64,000 nt of DNA, taken from Kineococcus rhizosphaerae (GTDB lineage Bacteria > Actinomycetota > Actinomycetes > Actinomycetales > Kineococcaceae). The stretch's first letter is position 1; each line of letters starts with the position of its first letter. This document shows, in pieces, positions 40,625-60,340 of this stretch. The notes below the pieces were generated by a model that saw nothing but the letters and a program-made list of their open reading frames with translations, ran no database searches and was not told the origin of the DNA. The stretch is taken from assembly GCF_003002055.1 (NCBI RefSeq), contig NZ_PVZF01000015.1, forward strand, positions 62,001 to 126,000, in the 5' to 3' direction. Made by a program: the position numbers and the translations under genes.

Positions 40625-41485
40625 TCACTTCCAGTCGAAGTACCCGATGCGCCAGGCCATCCACTGCAGCCACAGCCGCAGGTGGACGGGTTCGACGTAG
40701 CACCCGGCGGAGGCGACGACCGCGTGGACGTCGGAGTCGTCCAGCGTGAGCAGGTCGGTGATCTCCGCGGCGAGGAGGGCGAGGCGCTCGTCGGTCTCCT
40801 GTTCGAGCATCCCCACCTGCTGCCACCATGGCGAGTCCTCCTCGGGGACGAGGTTCTGACTGAACCACCCGCCGAAGGCGGCCCCCAGCACCGGCCAGCG
40901 CTCCCTGACCTCCTCGGGAGGCACCACCGCCTCCGCGTCGGCGGCGTGCAGGTTGACGACCCGCACGCTGTCGCGCCGTTCGAGGACGACGCCGATCCGG
41001 CGGGTCGGCCTCTCGGAGACCTGCCCCGTCGCACGGTCGAGCTGCCGCGCGACACCGATCGTGTGCGGTGCCTCCAGAACGAGGTAGTCCCGGCGACCGG
41101 CGAGCTCGGGAAGAGGGGCCTCGGCGAGGACCCGACGGACGGTCTCCTGCTCCGCAGGGTCCAGCAGCCCTTCACGCACGATCGGCGACGGCGGGTGCCG
41201 GGGCAAGGGTGCGAGCGTCGAGGGGTCGGCAGCGACCTCCGTCAGCCGCAGGTCCACCCATTCCGCCCAGCGCGCCCACGAGGTGCCCTCGGGCGGGTCC
41301 ACGAGGTTGACTCGCCCCTCGCGCTGCATCACCCCTGCGAAGTCCCCCGCGCGGGCGTGGTCGAGGACCTGCCGCCAGTGGTCGCGGAAACCGGTGAAGT
41401 CACCGCGGTTGTTCGTCAGCACGTCCTCCAGCGCCTCCCGAGCGCAGAGGTAGTGCTCCAACTCCCCGTAACCGGCCAGGGACAT
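40625..41485 (-). CDS. Putative immunity protein for the RNase A-like toxin
   Basis: A 286-residue, probably soluble acidic protein that I cannot assign to a family. ATG at 41485 is preferred because GTGAGGA lies eight bases before it; a GTG at 41500 overlaps the toxin stop. Visible features are a helical N-terminal third (YLCAREALEDVLTNN), a central strand-rich part (RRIGVVLERRDSVRVVNLHAADAEAVV) and Trp-rich segments near the end (LWLQWMAWRIGYFDW). Its place, 11 bases behind a polymorphic toxin gene on the same strand, is the standard place of an immunity gene. The function is inferred from context only. Confidence 0.6.
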   Translation of the reverse strand: MSLAGYGELEHYLCAREALEDVLTNNRGDFTGFRDHWRQVLDHARAGDFAGVMQREGRVNLVDPPEGTSWARWAEWVDLRLTEVAADPSTLAPLPRHPPSPIVREGLLDPAEQETVRRVLAEAPLPELAGRRDYLVLEAPHTIGVARQLDRATGQVSERPTRRIGVVLERRDSVRVVNLHAADAEAVVPPEEVRERWPVLGAAFGGWFSQNLVPEEDSPWWQQVGMLEQETDERLALLAAEITDLLTLDDSDVHAVVASAGCYVEPVHLRLWLQWMAWRIGYFDWK

Positions 41486-41496
41486 CGGATGGTTCC

Positions 41497-42750
41497 TCAC
41501 GACACTCCTTCCAGAAAAGCGGTCTCGACGTACCACGAACCGTCGTCAGCTTCGGCCAACACGATTCTCACCTGTGCGACCGGAACGTTCACGGGCGCAC
41601 CGTCAGCGCCGAGGGCCCAGACCACGCCGGCGTCGGCTGGTGCAGGGGCCACGACCTCGCTGCGGCGGAGGCCGTCGTCGATGTCGTGGTTGACCTTCTC
41701 GGACTGCAGACGCAACGCCGCGGTGATGACGTCCTCGGCTGTCGTCTGATCGGTGAAGCGCGACGCCACGGGAGGAGGTTTCTTGGCCGATCTCCCGTCT
41801 TCGAGCTCCCCCGTCAGCAGCCTCCTTTCGAGGAACTCGTCGTCCACCTCGACGTGCCGTCCCAGCGTGTGACCCCTCGCGAACACCTCGCTGCGCCCCA
41901 GGTCCACTCCCGCGTACAACTCCTCCACGCTCTGCGGCAGCGGTTTCCCGTCCGCGTCGAGGTACTTCGCCCACCGGTGCCCCTCGGGCAGCACCTTCCC
42001 GAGACGCCCGCCCCGCGAGATGCCCCGCCCGACGACGGCCGTCCCGAGCGTCGCGACTCCGGCGCCGTAGCGCCCGCTGGACCAGTCGTCCCAGTCGACG
42101 GCGTCGGCGAGGGTCCGGACGGGGTGCACCGCGCTGTCGAGCAGGGCGGCGGGCGTCTGCCGGACGGCGGCCGTCCACCCGGGCGCGTCCCACGCCCAGC
42201 CGGCCGCGAGGTAGGCGCTGTCGCGCGCGGAGTCCGCGAGGGTCCGGGCGGCGTCGTCGACGTGCTCGCCGAGGCGGCGGGGCCGGTGCTCGACGTGGTC
42301 GACGACGGCGAGCAACCGGGTCGCGAAGGACTCGGTCACCTCGTCGAACGCCGCGAGGACGGCGCGGCGGCTGGCCTGCCAGTGGTCGAGCTCGGCCCAG
42401 TCGGCGTGGAAGGTCGCGAGGTCCCCGACCCCGGCGTCGACGCGGGCCTGCACGTCGGCCAGGGCGGTGTCGATCCCGGCGAGCCGGCGTTGCAGCATCC
42501 CCAGTTCGGCGGAGTACCCCTCGATGAGGATCGCGCCCGCAGCGGCGGTGAACGTCAGCGTCCCGAGGTGGTCGGTGAGTTCGGCGACGCGGTCGTCGAA
42601 CCCGTCGCGGGCGAGGCCGTACCACCCGCCGAGCTGCCCGACGGCGACGGCGACGCGGCGGCCGATCTCGTCGGCCTGCACCGCCGCGGCGCGGGCCGCG
42701 GACGCGGCGGCGTCGGCCGCCGCGGTCGACAGCGTCGACAACTCGTCCAC
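41497..42750 (-). CDS. Polymorphic toxin with C-terminal bacterial RNase A-like domain
   Basis: A 417-residue protein; GTG at 42750 has GAGGAG six bases upstream. The N-terminal 200 or so residues are alpha-helical and Ala-rich, like WXG100-fused export modules of actinobacterial toxins, without signal peptide or membrane helix. A linker (WDDWSSGRYGAG, GHRWAKYLDADGKPL) leads to the toxin domain (293-417): GHTLGRHV with His299, EFLERRL, SRFTDQTTAED, and VRIVL followed by SWYVETAF with Thr410. This order matches the CdiA-CT RNase A-like family (RNAse_A_bac) as I remember it, where His, Arg, Thr and an aromatic residue form the active site. It is likely a secreted or contact-dependent ribonuclease. 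Confidence 0.75.
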   Translation of the reverse strand: MDELSTLSTAAADAAASAARAAAVQADEIGRRVAVAVGQLGGWYGLARDGFDDRVAELTDHLGTLTFTAAAGAILIEGYSAELGMLQRRLAGIDTALADVQARVDAGVGDLATFHADWAELDHWQASRRAVLAAFDEVTESFATRLLAVVDHVEHRPRRLGEHVDDAARTLADSARDSAYLAAGWAWDAPGWTAAVRQTPAALLDSAVHPVRTLADAVDWDDWSSGRYGAGVATLGTAVVGRGISRGGRLGKVLPEGHRWAKYLDADGKPLPQSVEELYAGVDLGRSEVFARGHTLGRHVEVDDEFLERRLLTGELEDGRSAKKPPPVASRFTDQTTAEDVITAALRLQSEKVNHDIDDGLRRSEVVAPAPADAGVVWALGADGAPVNVPVAQVRIVLAEADDGSWYVETAFLEGVS

Positions 42751-42884
42751 GTGCACCTCCTCCCGGTCCGCGGAACGTAGCCCGGATCGCCCGGACGCCC
42801 GGGAGACCGTCCACAGGGCGGTTCCTCACCGGCACGGTGCGGTCCGGACCGCCGACGCACCGTCACCGGGCGGCGCGGAAACGC

Positions 42885-42914
42885 TCGACAGGGCGTGCGC
42901 CGGCGTGCCACTGT
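42885..42914 (+). promoter_or_regulatory. Candidate promoter of the ThrRS-like leader
   Basis: TCGACA (42885-42890) and CACTGT (42909-42914) are 18 bases apart and give a predicted transcript start at or next to the GTG at 42921, meaning a leaderless leader peptide. The -10 is a modest match. Confidence 0.4.
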
Positions 42915-42920
42915 GGGTCC

Positions 42921-42983
42921 GTGAAGTTCAGCCAGCAGCGCACGACGACGCCGGTCCACTCCCGGTGTCGCGGTCAGCGCTGA
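42921..42983 (+). CDS. Leader peptide with three consecutive threonine codons
   Basis: A 20-codon ORF, GTG to TGA, coding MKFSQQRTTTPVHSRCRGQR. Codons 8-10 are ACG ACG ACG (Thr-Thr-Thr). It ends 12 bases before a perfect 11-bp GC hairpin and 79 bases before a threonyl-tRNA synthetase-like gene. A run of codons for the amino acid whose tRNA is charged by the downstream gene product is the hallmark of ribosome-mediated attenuation: a ribosome stalled for lack of Thr-tRNA would stop the terminator from folding. It is too short for coding statistics, so the evidence is the codon run plus the layout. Confidence 0.55.
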   Translation: MKFSQQRTTTPVHSRCRGQR

Positions 42984-42995
42984 GCTGAAGCAGAC

Positions 42996-43021
42996 GAGCC
43001 CCGGGGGTTTCCCCGGGGCTC
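42996..43021 (+). terminator. Attenuator-like hairpin before the ThrRS-like gene
   Basis: GAGCCCCGGGG (42996-43006) pairs perfectly with CCCCGGGGCTC (43011-43021) around GTTT. A smaller palindrome, TCAGCGCTGA (42974-42983), precedes it and overlaps the stop of the leader ORF, a possible competing structure. No long T-run follows (TCCTCGTT). Confidence 0.7.
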
Positions 43022-43062
43022 TCCTCGTTCCCGGGCACCCCCTGACCAGCAGGAGGAACTCC

Positions 43063-44241
43063 GTGAACGACGACCACTCGTCCCGAGGCCGTGAGCTCGA
43101 CCTCTTCGACACCTCACCGCTCGTCGGTCCCGGTCTGCCGTTGTGGCTGCCGGACGGCGGGACCGTCCGCGGTGAGCTGGAGAGGTTCGCCCTGGAACTG
43201 TCCCTGCGCAGCGGGTGCCGGCGGGTGAACACACCCGTCCTGGCCAAGCGAGAACTGTTCGAGCGGTCGGGGCACTGGCAGAAGTTCTCCGCCGACATGT
43301 TCGCCCCGGTCCGGGTCGGTGCGGAGGAGTACGTCCTGCGCCCGGCGAACTGCCCGCACCACACCCAGGTGTACGCCGCGCGCCCGCACAGCCACCGGGA
43401 CCTGCCCGTGCGGTACGCGGAACTGGGGTCGATGTTCCGCAGCGAGCTGTCCGGTGTCCTCATGGGGTTGCGCCGGGTCCGGCAGATCAGCCTCGACGAC
43501 GCGCACTCGTTCTGCCGTCCGGACCAGGTGGTCGAGGAGGTGCGGATCGCGCTGGCGGCGATCGAGGAGGCGTACGCCGTCCTGGGGATCCGCGTGGCGC
43601 GGTTCCGGTTGTCCGTCCGGGGCCCCGGGGGCTCCTACCTCGGCGACGACGCCCTGTGGGAGCGGGCCGAGGGGCAGTTGCGCGAGGCCCTGGGCGACCG
43701 TCCCCACGACGTCGCCCCCGGGGAGGCGGCGTTCTACGGCCCCAAGGTCGACGTGCAGGTGGCCGACGCGGCCGGCCGGGAGGAGACCCTGTCGACCGTG
43801 CAGGTCGACCACGTCCAGCCCGAGCGCTTCGGCCTGGAGTTCACCGGCGCGGACGGCGCCCGGCACCGGCCCGTGATGGTGCACCGCGGTCTGCTGAGCT
43901 CCATGGAGCGGCTGGTCGCGATGCTGCTGGAGCAGGACGGCGGCCGGTTGCCGACCTGGTTGTCCCCGGTGCAGGTGCGGGTCCTGCCGGTCAGCGGGGA
44001 GCGCCACGGCGAGCGCGCCCGCGAGATCGCCCGCGGTGCGAGGGGTCTGCGGGTGGAGGTCGACGAGGTGGGTCCGCTGAACCGGCGCGTGCGGGACGCG
44101 CGGGCGCGGCGGGTGCCGCACGTCGTCGTCGTGGGCGACGCGGAGGTGGCGGACGGTTCAGTGGCGGTCGACGGCCGGCAGGTTCCGGCGCAGGAGTTCC
44201 TCGACGCGGTGCTCGGCGAGGTCGTCCGCCGCGGACGGTGA
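43063..44241 (+). CDS. Threonyl-tRNA synthetase paralogue lacking TGS and editing domains
   Basis: A 392-residue class II synthetase; GTG at 43063 with AGGAGG six bases upstream. It keeps the catalytic core and anticodon domain only: motif 2 MFRSELSGVLMGLRRVRQISLDDAHSFC, motif 3-like VMVHRGLLSSMERL. The three zinc ligands that select threonine are all present (Cys97 in RPANCPHH, His148 in DDAHSF, His274 in MVHRG). The C-terminal HGxTP-type anticodon domain runs from about 300 (VRVLPVSGERHGERA to HVVVVGDAEV). Normal bacterial ThrRS (about 640 aa) has N-terminal TGS and editing domains, which are absent. It may be a stress or inhibitor-resistant spare enzyme. The last 84 bases overlap the convergent GGDEF-EAL gene. 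Confidence 0.88.
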   Translation: MNDDHSSRGRELDLFDTSPLVGPGLPLWLPDGGTVRGELERFALELSLRSGCRRVNTPVLAKRELFERSGHWQKFSADMFAPVRVGAEEYVLRPANCPHHTQVYAARPHSHRDLPVRYAELGSMFRSELSGVLMGLRRVRQISLDDAHSFCRPDQVVEEVRIALAAIEEAYAVLGIRVARFRLSVRGPGGSYLGDDALWERAEGQLREALGDRPHDVAPGEAAFYGPKVDVQVADAAGREETLSTVQVDHVQPERFGLEFTGADGARHRPVMVHRGLLSSMERLVAMLLEQDGGRLPTWLSPVQVRVLPVSGERHGERAREIARGARGLRVEVDEVGPLNRRVRDARARRVPHVVVVGDAEVADGSVAVDGRQVPAQEFLDAVLGEVVRRGR

Positions 44242-46494
44242 CCTCTGGTCGCACCAGCGCTCGAACGCGGCGGCGGGGACGGGACGGCTGTGGAGGTAGC
44301 CCTGGACGAGGTCGCACCCGAGGCGGGTGAGCTCGCGCAGGGTCTCCTCGTCCTCGACGCCCTCGGCGACGACGCGGGCGCCGAGGCGGTGGGCGAGCTC
44401 GATGGTCGACACGATCACCGCCTCGGCGCGCGGGTCGGTGCCGATGCCGGTGACGAAGCTGCGGTCGAGCTTGACCTCGTCGAACTCCCGCTGCCGGAAG
44501 TACCCCAGGGAGGAGTAGCCGGTGCCGAAGTCGTCGATGCTGAGGGACAGGCCCATCTCGGAGAACTCGCGCAGGACGGCGAGGCTGCCGGCCGAGCCCT
44601 CCATGGCGACGGTCTCGGTGATCTCCAGCGCGAGGACGTCGACCGGGGCGTGGTGGCGGTGCAGGAGGGCGGACACGCGGGCCGGCAGGGCGGGGTTGGC
44701 GAGGTTCGTGGCGGACAGGTTCACCGCGACCCGCACGCCGCGGCCGTCGCGGTGCCAGGCGGAGGCGACGCGCAACGCCTCGTCGAGGACCCAGCCGGTG
44801 AGGGCGTGCATGAGCCCGTGCCGTTCGACGAGCCCGAGGAACGTCAGCGGCGGCATGAGGCCGTGGTCGGGGTGCTGCCAGCGCACGAGCGCCTCGGCGC
44901 CCTCGACGGTCCCGTCGTCGGTGCGGACCTGCGGCTGGAAGTGCAGCAGCAGGTTCCCGGCGCGCAGGTGGTCGTCGGCGTCGGCCTCGGTGTCGAGCCC
45001 GAGGCAGACCCGCAGCTGCTCGACGAGCAGGAGTTCCCCGCGGACCCCGCCGAGCGCGCCGGCGTCGTGGCCGGCGACCCGGTCGCCGCCCTCCTTGGCG
45101 CTCAGCAGGGCGAGGTCGGCGACGTGCAGGAGGTCGGCCGCGGTCTCGGCCTGGCGGGGGTGCACCGCGACGCCGACGCTGGCCCCGACGTGGATGCGCC
45201 GTCCGCCGACGGTGTAGCTGCCGCTGATCGCGGGGTGGGCGGCGCGGACGGTGTCGAGGCCCTCCTCCGGCCCGGGCAGCAGGACGGCGAGCTCGTCGCC
45301 GCCGAGCCGGGCGACGAGGGCGTCGGCCGGGAACGTGGCGCGCAGCCGGGCCACGACCTGGCGCAGCAGGTCGTCGCCGGCGCCGTGGCCGAGGGAGTCG
45401 TTGACGGTCTTGAACCGGTCGAGGTCGACGAGGGCCAGGGCGAAGGGTTCGGCGGCCTCGACGCGGGCGGTGACCGCTTCGACGAGGGCGCGGCGGTTGG
45501 CGGCGCCGGTGAGGTCGTCGACGAGCGCGGCCTGCCGGAACGCGGTGAGGGTGAGCAGTTCCCGCTGACCGCCGACGAGGAGCCCGACCCCGCCGACGAG
45601 GGCGACGAACGCCAGGCTGGCGCTGAACGGGTCGGGCCGGCCGAGGGCGACGAGGAACAGGACGACCGCCGCGACGGGCACGCAGACGACGGGCAGGACG
45701 TACAGCCAGCGCCCGTCGCGGGCCGTGGACCGTCGCGGGTTCGGGGCCAGCCAGGACGTCGCGGCGACGGCGACGAGCCCGCCGACCCACGCGACGTCGA
45801 AGCCGAGGCCGAAGGTGACGGCCGTCCCGCCGCTGCAGACGAGGACGACGGAGTAGCCGACGTCGCCGGCGGCGAAGACGGTGAGCCCGGCGGTCAGCGC
45901 CCACCAGCGGTGGTCACGGCCGCGGCCGGCGGCGACGACACCCGCGCAGGCGGCCACGATGAGGTCGCCGAAGGGCAGGTACAGCCACCAGCCGACGTTC
46001 AGCAGCGGGGTTCCCGTGAGGTGGGCCAGGGGCGGGGCGACGAACCGGGCGATGACGGCGGCGAGCAGGACGAGGACGGTGGCGATCTCGAGGACGTAGC
46101 TGCGCCGTTGCACGCGGTGGGGCCACAGCAGTGCGCCGATGCCCCGCAGCCAGAACAGGTACCCGACGACGTAGCCGGCCTCCAGGGCGGTCAGCGGGAC
46201 GTCGCCCACGACGTTCTGCAGGACGTCGACGGCGATCTCGGTCGCGGTGTAGCAGGTCCAGCCGACGGCGAACTCGCGCCAGGCGCGCGCCTCGCCGTCG
46301 TCGACGCGGGCCCGCAGCCACAGGGCGGTGACGGCGAGGAGCTCGACGCCCGAGCCGAGCCAGGTGTCCAGGGCCGGGCCGTGGGAGTGCGCGAGGAGGG
46401 TCAGGACCAGGTAGAGGACCCAGCCGGCGCCGGCGAGGGCGAGCAGGGTCCGGGGTGTGCGCCGGCGCCAGGCGGAGCGGGAGCTGGTGGGCAC
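44158..46494 (-). CDS. GGDEF-EAL bifunctional cyclic-di-GMP protein with membrane sensor (paralogue 2)
   Basis: A 778-residue protein starting at GTG 46494. Eight to nine membrane helices (about 15-310) precede a GGDEF domain reading GGDEL (about 397; DDLTGAANRRALV, no RxxD site) and a complete EAL domain: GAEALVRW (about 531), LEITETVAM, SIDDFGTGYSSL (about 650), VKLDRSFV and AEGVED. It has the same order and near-equal spacing as the gene at 26790-29135. It probably hydrolyses c-di-GMP; synthesis is possible. Its 3' end overlaps the ThrRS-like gene by 84 bases, coding the last 28 residues or so (after SRPVPAAAFERWCDQ), beyond the EAL domain core. Confidence 0.93.
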   Translation of the reverse strand: MPTSSRSAWRRRTPRTLLALAGAGWVLYLVLTLLAHSHGPALDTWLGSGVELLAVTALWLRARVDDGEARAWREFAVGWTCYTATEIAVDVLQNVVGDVPLTALEAGYVVGYLFWLRGIGALLWPHRVQRRSYVLEIATVLVLLAAVIARFVAPPLAHLTGTPLLNVGWWLYLPFGDLIVAACAGVVAAGRGRDHRWWALTAGLTVFAAGDVGYSVVLVCSGGTAVTFGLGFDVAWVGGLVAVAATSWLAPNPRRSTARDGRWLYVLPVVCVPVAAVVLFLVALGRPDPFSASLAFVALVGGVGLLVGGQRELLTLTAFRQAALVDDLTGAANRRALVEAVTARVEAAEPFALALVDLDRFKTVNDSLGHGAGDDLLRQVVARLRATFPADALVARLGGDELAVLLPGPEEGLDTVRAAHPAISGSYTVGGRRIHVGASVGVAVHPRQAETAADLLHVADLALLSAKEGGDRVAGHDAGALGGVRGELLLVEQLRVCLGLDTEADADDHLRAGNLLLHFQPQVRTDDGTVEGAEALVRWQHPDHGLMPPLTFLGLVERHGLMHALTGWVLDEALRVASAWHRDGRGVRVAVNLSATNLANPALPARVSALLHRHHAPVDVLALEITETVAMEGSAGSLAVLREFSEMGLSLSIDDFGTGYSSLGYFRQREFDEVKLDRSFVTGIGTDPRAEAVIVSTIELAHRLGARVVAEGVEDEETLRELTRLGCDLVQGYLHSRPVPAAAFERWCDQRSPSAADDLAEHRVEELLRRNLPAVDRH

Positions 46495-59338: not shown

Positions 59339-60340
59339 ATGGCAGTGACGAGCCGCGACGTCGCGCGCGTCGCGGGTGTCTCGCAGCCGACCGTCTCCCG
59401 GGCCCTGCGCGACGACCCGCGCCTGTCCGAGCAGACCAAGCAGCGCGTGCGCGAGGCCGCCGTGCTCCTGGGCTACGTGCCGAGCGACGCCGGTCGCGCC
59501 CTGTCCTCCGGGCGGACCCGGCGGATCGGGCTGCTGGTGACCGACCTGACCAACGAGTTCTACCACCACATCATCGCGCCGGTGCACCACGAGCTCGCGC
59601 ACCACGGCTACCAGCTGGTGCTGCACACCGAGTCCGACGACAACGGCGACGTGGTGGACCGCCTGCTGGCCAACGGGATCGACGGCGTCGTCCTGGCCAC
59701 GACGACGGTCGACTCCCTCGCCCCGCTGCGCCTGCGCGACCGCGGGCTGCCCTTCGTCTACCTCAACCGCACGAACACCCAGGTCGACGCGGACTCCACC
59801 GTCGTCTCCCCCGCGCAGGGTTTCGCCGACGCGGCCCGGCGGGTCGTGGACCTGGGCCACGTGCGCGTCGGCGCGGTCCTCGGCCCGAGCAACACGAGCA
59901 CGGGGCAGTCGCGCGAACTGGCGCTGCGGGCGGCGATGGCCGACCACGGCCTGGCCCTGGAGACCCGGTTCGTGCGTCGCGGCCCCTACGAGACCGGGGT
60001 CGGGGACGCCGCGGTCACCGAGCTCCTGACCCTCCCGGAACCACCGACGCTGATCTTCTGCGGCAACGACGTCGTCGCCTACGGCGCGCTGAACGCCGCG
60101 GCACGCCTCGGCGTCCGGGTCCCCGAGGACGTGTCGGTCGTCGGCTTCGACGACCTCCCGCCGGCGGCCTGGCCGATCCTGCAGCTGGCGACCATCGCCT
60201 ACGACCTCGAGGGGATGGCCCGCGAGGCCGCCCGGCTGGCCGTCCTGCGGATCGACGAGCCTGCGAAACCGTTGTCCCACACCACGTTCGACACCACGTT
60301 CGTCGAGCGCCGGACGTTGGGCGAAGCCCCCCTCCACTGA
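59339..60340 (+). CDS. LacI family transcriptional regulator
   Basis: A 333-residue repressor; ATG at 59339 with GGAGG eight bases upstream. The DNA-binding part reads TSRDVARVAGVSQPTVSRALRDDPRLSEQTKQRVREAA, then the hinge and GYVPSDAGRALSSGRTRRIGLLVTDLTNEFYHHI. The ligand domain has the ribose-binding-protein fold (FCGNDVVAYGALNAAARLGVRVPEDVSVVGFDD). It is divergent from the HisD operon, next to operator 2. The same motif before the importer and the SnoaL/bicupin operon makes it the likely regulator of all three. The inducer is presumably the imported compound or a product. Confidence 0.95.
   Translation: MAVTSRDVARVAGVSQPTVSRALRDDPRLSEQTKQRVREAAVLLGYVPSDAGRALSSGRTRRIGLLVTDLTNEFYHHIIAPVHHELAHHGYQLVLHTESDDNGDVVDRLLANGIDGVVLATTTVDSLAPLRLRDRGLPFVYLNRTNTQVDADSTVVSPAQGFADAARRVVDLGHVRVGAVLGPSNTSTGQSRELALRAAMADHGLALETRFVRRGPYETGVGDAAVTELLTLPEPPTLIFCGNDVVAYGALNAAARLGVRVPEDVSVVGFDDLPPAAWPILQLATIAYDLEGMAREAARLAVLRIDEPAKPLSHTTFDTTFVERRTLGEAPLH

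Follow-up and report, generated by a model that had tools for sequence, protein, structure and literature searches.

The window, i.e. the whole 64,000-nucleotide stretch of Kineococcus rhizosphaerae DNA that was analysed, carries a shortened threonyl-tRNA synthetase (ThrRS) gene preceded by a very short open reading frame and by several potential RNA helices (Table 1). On the gene product, Pfam annotates only a class II core and an anticodon-binding domain. TGS and editing domains were not found in the Pfam scan, and the TIGR00418 thrS match (414 bits, cut-off 383.65) covers model positions 171-546 of 565. The equivalents of C97, H148 and H274, the putative zinc ligands according to general ThrRS knowledge and the aligned motifs, are Cys, His and His in 168 out of 168 truncated relatives. 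Thus the preliminary description of this DNA, made from the sequence alone, was right to propose a ThrRS-like gene that keeps these three ligands and lacks both other domains. The question raised with it, whether the genome also has a full-length thrS, is answered by an open frame of 671 amino acids at C1:95601, with 38% identity.

Table 1. Features of the truncated ThrRS gene and its leader region (window positions)
Feature	Position	Strand	Basis
WblC/WhiB7-like box GAAACG, imperfect match to GAAAWY, upstream of the -35	42878-42883	+	boxes of relatives
Proposed promoter: -35 TCGACA (42885-42890), 18-bp spacer, -10 CACTGT (42909-42914)	42885-42914	+	sequence
Leader ORF, GTG...TGA, 20 codons, peptide VKFSQQRTTTPVHSRCRGQR; probably leaderless	42921-42983	+	direct reading; conservation
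Putative sensor codons ACG ACG ACG	42942-42950	+	ACG conservation in 163 TTTP leaders
Strand 1 (CGACGCCGG) of stem 1:2	42946-42954	+	MFE fold; best-stem survey of relatives
Strand 2 (CCGGUGUCG) of stem 1:2	42962-42970	+	MFE fold; best-stem survey of relatives
Alternative helix 2:3	42959-42965 with 43001-43007	+	folding; little covariation
Terminator-like hairpin 3:4, 11 bp, loop GUUU, without U tract	42996-43021	+	direct reading; conservation
Segment X (GGGGGU), covers the 3' end of strand 3 and the loop; complements 43037-43042	43003-43008	+	swap test; two-sided changes
Segment Y (ACCCCCUG); alternative partners X or SD region	43037-43044	+	swap tests; column counts
Segment Z including Shine-Dalgarno GGAGGA (43052-43057); pairs with Y	43050-43057	+	MFE fold; swap test
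Truncated ThrRS gene (thrS2-like), GTG start, 392 aa	43063-44241	+	TIGR00418; Pfam; motifs

In a tree of 50 sequences, all 29 truncated ThrRS fall into one group (100/99). Its neighbours are the full-length proteins L200 and L098, and the full-length ThrRS of the window's genus lie apart from it. Among solved structures, 1nyq matches the sequence best, with 377 bits; all others, including the E. coli-type 1qf6, reach at most 254. From the tree grouping and this best match, the spare gene appears to be a separate lineage of long standing rather than a recently broken copy of the main gene. L200 (G870:C316), the closest full-length relative in the tree, comes from a g37 genome that also carries the truncated L201; its stretch ends short of its own start, so that the leader region is not covered.

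The truncated gene is found in 5 of the 11 genomes of the same genus and, in a sample of 394 genomes of the class, in 61 (E up to 1e-95). In overlapping samples, with E up to 1e-100, it was detected in 7 out of 121 genomes of family f12, 47 out of 81 of family f43 and 58 out of 121 of genus g37, counts which are based on E-value and of which one g37 match, L200, is full-length. The gene also occurs outside the class (L092, L093, L097 and L099).

A leader model scanned against 246 genomes gave 40 matches, of which 37 adjoin truncated genes known from the class sample. The other three lie in G098, which has the gene, at a contig edge in G244 and in G251. No leader element was found before non-ThrRS genes among these 40 matches; the scan used stricter filters and scored 14 candidates per genome, elements elsewhere may escape it, and the gene-bearing G162, G210 and G219 are absent from its matches. 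In G251, which is not among the 61 class genomes with the truncated gene, the same leader and hairpins precede an open frame for a full-length ThrRS (L257, G251:C55, 490-2299) that groups with the main type in the tree.

We rejected the leader as a general feature of thrS genes. Short ORFs with three threonine codons precede only three of the 33 loci classed as full-length (L099, L101 and L107), four of these 33 having no upstream sequence and two less than 400 nt. L099 turned out to be truncated and to have a genuine leader (55.9 bits), and the ORFs of L101 and L107, which have no leader-model match, look like chance; model scoring omitted L105 and L110.

The 20-codon ORF with three ACG codons that had been reported at 42921-42983 is present by direct reading. 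Threonine codons of this kind alone are not rare, since the 5.6-Mb genome contains 18 copies of the 13-base pattern ACGACGACGCCGG, yet the recurrence of the leader in the genus and the class argues for more than chance, and a chance origin was rejected on this conservation. All five of the gene-bearing genomes among the 11 of the genus have the leader before the orthologue. More widely, 169 truncated-ThrRS loci were usable, i.e. 172 minus the full-length L200 and minus L070 and L091, which lie near contig edges with short upstream sequence. At least two consecutive threonine codons are present in a leader at 168 of these 169 loci and at least three at 165, although many loci are near relatives and the counts are not independent. 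The conservation of threonine codons and hairpin among related genomes, on which the preliminary description had made its proposal depend, is therefore found.

A TTTP leader is present at 163 of the 169 loci, and in these 163 aligned leaders the three threonine positions are ACG in 157, 162 and 163 cases; the peptide 3' of them is variable. By eye, L093 and L097 have three or more threonine codons followed by Gly, and L132, L158 and L164 have two each. The leader ORF is lost only in L167 (again by eye). The truncated gene of L167 retains the terminator-like hairpin and the downstream part, with a leader-model score of 51.5 bits, and contains no ACG. Stem 1:2 starts at the third threonine codon. 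Its pairing leaves the choice of ACG at the first two positions unexplained, since both lie outside the 6-bp stem in most loci. Elsewhere in the window, the leader model has a weak match at 60066-60139 on the plus strand (19.6 bits, E 0.014), which is probably due to chance.

The region 42921-43065 folds with -77.2 kcal/mol (z = -4.24), and none of 200 shuffled sequences was equally stable. The minimum free energy (MFE) fold of the window combines stem 1:2, hairpin 3:4 and Y paired with the Shine-Dalgarno (SD) region, where 43039-43044 pair with 43050-43053 and 43055-43056. Hairpin 3:4 reads GAGCCCCGGGG-GTTT-CCCCGGGGCTC; direct reading confirms the perfect 11-bp helix of the preliminary description, with a loop of 4 nt. 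Since no U tract follows it in the window, we use the word terminator for this hairpin in a putative sense. We searched the window with Rfam and found no family, T-box included, at gathering score; at these thresholds a T-box or other known RNA family was rejected, in agreement with the earlier reading, which had seen no T-box.

The helices were compared among relatives in an alignment, A1, of 44 hand-picked representatives out of 79, and by swap tests and folding on 156 of the 168 loci that remain once the leaderless-ORF locus L167 is set aside, 12 having been dropped for doubtful hairpin or start positions. The best stem at the position of stem 1:2 has at least 6 bp in 167 out of 168 relatives, in a survey without shuffled control. 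The stem is nearly invariant, with a single type of compensatory pair among the 44 rows of A1; L143 has the compensatory version CGCCAGG:CCTGGCG. By eye, stem 1:2 is retained in L053 and L057 although the frame after the threonine codons differs there. The main helix of hairpin 3:4 is paired in 96.2% of the cells of A1. Jointly, the OFF helices are paired in 85.9% of cells and show 63 two-sided changes against 24.2 in shuffled alignments (0/500), where the counted structures came from one row of A1, which favours them over slid versions.

Swapping segments across relatives gave strong signals for X:Y (z = -13.0) and Y:Z (z = -12.4), each with 0/2000, in figures that are inflated by the relatedness of the sequences. 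Among the other pairs, X:Z (-1.0), S4:Y (+0.8), S2:Z (+0.5), S2:S4 (-1.1) and S1:S2 (-1.7) were mostly flat, with S4:Z at -2.3 and S2:S3, i.e. helix 2:3, at -3.1. Both signals recur within family f43 (X:Y -6.6, Y:Z -5.0) and within genus g37 (X:Y -4.6, Y:Z -6.3), with 0/5000 each. They are weaker in the small set of loci that includes the window's genus (z of -3.2 and -2.5), where X:Z also reaches -1.9. Column counts mostly agree with the swap tests, with 30 two-sided changes for X:Y against 10.1 shuffled; the Y:Z columns are paired in just 53-69% of cells of A1, in which the placement of Y is uneven by eye. Given the repeats within families and the mostly flat other pairs, pairing is the simplest reading of the X:Y and Y:Z signals. 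Segment Y, which precedes the SD, covaries with the terminator loop as well as with the SD region, which suggests that translation may be controlled too.

The preliminary description had proposed to look for a competing antiterminator by folding. With strand 1 masked, a 2:3 helix of at least 4 bp forms in 156/156 or 152/156 loci, depending on the footprint, but covariation supports it weakly or not at all. In the equilibrium folds of both states, the SD is largely masked. With the 5' part of strand 3 held open and the SD still untranscribed, X:Y forms with at least 4 bp in 138 of the 156 loci. As X:Y prevails in this pre-SD snapshot, the translational half of the model is a kinetic proposal.

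Our main reading, to which we give a probability of roughly three in four, is that the leader is a ribosome-mediated attenuator that reads the charging of ACG-decoding tRNA-Thr and controls a backup ThrRS made of the core and the anticodon-binding domain. When ACG is read fast, the ribosome would reach the leader stop, or stem 1:2 would form, so that hairpin 3:4 folds and ends the majority of transcripts; in the read-through transcripts, Y would pair with the SD and block translation. When charged Thr-tRNA is scarce, the ribosome would stall at ACG ACG ACG and cover strand 1. Strand 2 could then pair with strand 3, hairpin 3:4 would not form, and its loop segment X would be free to take Y and leave the SD open. 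Comparison among relatives supports the leader ORF, the identity of the ACG codons, stem 1:2, hairpin 3:4, X:Y, Y:Z, the promoter spacing and the avoidance of ACG described below. Stalling, termination, helix 2:3, the order of folding, induction by shortage or by WblC and the charging of tRNA-Thr by the enzyme are inferred.

Alternatively, the system could be a translational attenuator only, in which the hairpin is a spacer and the leader ribosome decides just whether Y masks the SD. The missing U tract fits this, as does the fact that, outside 3:4, the variable helices with the best support are X:Y and Y:Z, 2:3 being weak. In its favour, too, termination was found unclear in S. lividans, as far as the available text of PMC8079986 goes. 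However, terminators lacking U runs occur in actinobacteria, a strong and conserved hairpin would be needless for a spacer, and the equilibrium folds leave the SD closed. We regard this purely translational scheme as unlikely, although it is the likeliest of the alternatives.

The preliminary description had also supposed that the promoter hexamers make the leader peptide leaderless. In 163 out of 168 loci, an in-frame leader start is preceded by TANNNT at a distance of 6-8 nt, against a background of 122 out of 11,410 positions (1.1%). The five loci without it are those of the window's genus, which have CACNNT in the same place. Together with the leaderless thrL seen by RNA-seq in S. lividans, this spacing supports the supposition. 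Furthermore, 48 of the 163 loci have GAAAWY at 17-50 nt from the -10 on its upstream side, 33 of them exactly at -33 (background 27/3852). The window's genus has, by eye, [G/C]AAAC at about -31/-32, with GAAACG at -31 in the window.

We take SCO3778 to be thrS2 of S. coelicolor and SLIV_19410 to be its orthologue. The box of the stress regulator WblC is GAAAWY, located 3 nt upstream of the -35 (PMC7157823, cited here, like the other papers, from the available part of its text), which is where a box at -33 would lie with an 18-bp spacer. S. coelicolor thrS2 is activated by WblC as part of the antibiotic-stress regulon (PMC7157823), and sigma-E binding was reported at SCO3778, described as a ThrRS gene, in ethanol-stressed cells (PMC10771440). 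This WblC link and the fixed-distance boxes in part of the promoters would suit a general translation-stress uORF, with antibiotic stalling at any leader codon, transcription by WblC and threonine as an incidental residue. If any stall sufficed, though, there would be no need for tandem, nearly all-ACG threonine codons matched to ThrRS genes which avoid ACG, and we consider such a uORF improbable.

None of the 8 threonine codons of the window's ThrRS gene is ACG. In the 168 truncated genes, threonine accounts for 1266 out of 64,609 codons (2.0%), a low content that is weaker evidence since Asn is dropped equally. These codons are 1203 ACC, 43 ACT, 12 ACG and 8 ACA, where about 561 ACG would be expected from the use of G-ending Ala, Pro and Ser codons in the same genes, and 159 of the 168 genes have no ACG at all. 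The DNA word itself is not avoided, as ACG is common out of frame (3508 and 603 occurrences). Among Thr codons, the eight neighbouring ORFs of the window have 17-68% ACG, and the flanking long ORFs of relatives, some of which may be spurious frames, have 35%; the full-length thrS of the window's genus has 22% in the core. The full-length ThrRS of G251 that stands behind the leader has 24 ACC and 0 ACG in the 553 codons examined.

The avoidance might instead be the ordinary codon bias of highly expressed genes, given that ACC is the commonest threonine codon also in full-length ThrRS cores and flanking ORFs. Against this, G-ending Ala, Pro, Ser and Val codons are used about as in full-length ThrRS, the G-ending fractions of Leu and Arg are not low either, with that of Gly somewhat low (0.27 vs 0.36 and 0.47), and in the five genomes of the genus that carry both genes, ACG makes up 40 of the 159 threonine codons of the full-length thrS frames. 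Codon bias in place of the regulation seems quite improbable to us. Poorer still, and to be given very little credit, is autoregulation, with ThrRS2 binding to its own leader and a secondary role for the leader ORF: E. coli ThrRS is mentioned as autoregulated (PMC2965389), but the conserved in-frame threonine codons and leaderless start and an MFE fold of plain hairpins speak against it.

Under the attenuator reading, a gene that avoids ACG would be translatable during the very shortage that turns it on. In the window's own genome, tRNA-Thr genes with the anticodons GGU, CGU and UGU occur once each (Rfam and ARAGORN), in a survey that examined all 51 Rfam matches, one of which, in L308, has no ARAGORN gene. 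ACC is read by the GGU anticodon and ACG by CGU or UGU. An ACG sensor and an ACG-poor rescue gene fit the selective-charging theory, according to which the codon that starves early should be sensed and the rescue gene built from codons that do not starve (PMC1183508). We tentatively extend the main reading to a codon-matched sensor and effector, with somewhat less than even odds: the leader would sense the selective loss of charging of ACG-reading tRNA-Thr, the nearly ACG-free gene would respond, and the hairpin loop, mimicking the SD strand, would let one leader peptide control both transcription and translation.

The thrS gene under thrL control in S. lividans is presumably of the truncated type. 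In strain TK24, thrL-thrS (SLIV_19412/SLIV_19410) was listed as an attenuator in 2021 and thrL is leaderless by RNA-seq (PMC8079986). Like here, the leaderless peptide, MKRVRPFLETTPGFVPAR, precedes a ThrRS gene, there is one hairpin without a U-rich stretch, and the TTP...VPAR ending is shared with many relatives here; unlike here, there are just two threonine codons. An SD-masking helix, codon specificity, ACG avoidance and a wider distribution are not described in the available part of that account. The leader itself is already known; in substance the finding holds, and part of it had been described before. The layout of ribosome-mediated attenuation that the preliminary description proposed holds for the conserved threonine codons and hairpins; the idea itself is not new, and the design looks richer than a simple terminator, because an SD-masking helix competes with a terminator-loop helix and the gene avoids the sensed codon.

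Attenuators of Streptomyces trpS and leuS were predicted in 2005 (PMC1262725). With these, with the actinobacterial trp leader and with the classical E. coli trp and thr leaders, the element shares tandem cognate codons, an overlying stem and a later GC-rich hairpin (PMC1262725). It differs in the extra SD-level helices, the lack of a U tract and a helix 2:3 without covariation support, and the E. coli thr leader has eight ACC (PMC1183508) in place of ACG. The ThrRS pair T1/T2 of Anabaena is similar in having a second ThrRS with poor editing and a link to stress. T2, however, has a degenerate editing domain and belongs to the Zur regulon, whereas the present gene lacks an editing domain altogether and would be controlled through a leader peptide (PMC4787780, PMC6103462). 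With the WblC/WhiB7 regulon, of which S. coelicolor thrS2 is a member, part of the promoters here share the GAAAWY box at its fixed distance (PMC7157823); unlike that control, the thr leader would sense a specific codon.

Among open-licence PubMed Central papers, we found no description of the ACG avoidance or of the SD-level helices. As far as our searches reach, four points appear to be new within this literature: the leader is widespread and nearly universal before truncated ThrRS genes, its ACG specificity goes with ACG avoidance in the gene, helices at the SD level covary, and in one case the element precedes a full-length ThrRS. The same codon acts as the putative sensor and is dropped from the controlled gene in many genomes, also, in one case, where the controlled ThrRS is a different one, which makes the theory directly testable by simple codon swaps. 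Moreover, the system suggests that antibiotic-making bacteria back up an essential enzyme in layers, by WblC and a leader peptide. It also points to a type of leader whose terminator loop and SD region compete for one anti-SD segment.

As to the gene neighbourhood, the 3' end of the ThrRS gene overlaps that of a convergent GGDEF-EAL gene (44158-46494, minus strand) by 84 bp (44158-44241). Upstream, the minus-strand gene at 41497-42756 encodes a C-terminal CdiA-CT RNase A-type domain (PF18431, E 3.5e-9) and is directly followed by an ORF at 40625-41536 on the same strand, which has no NCBIfam match; together they resemble a polymorphic toxin and its candidate immunity protein.
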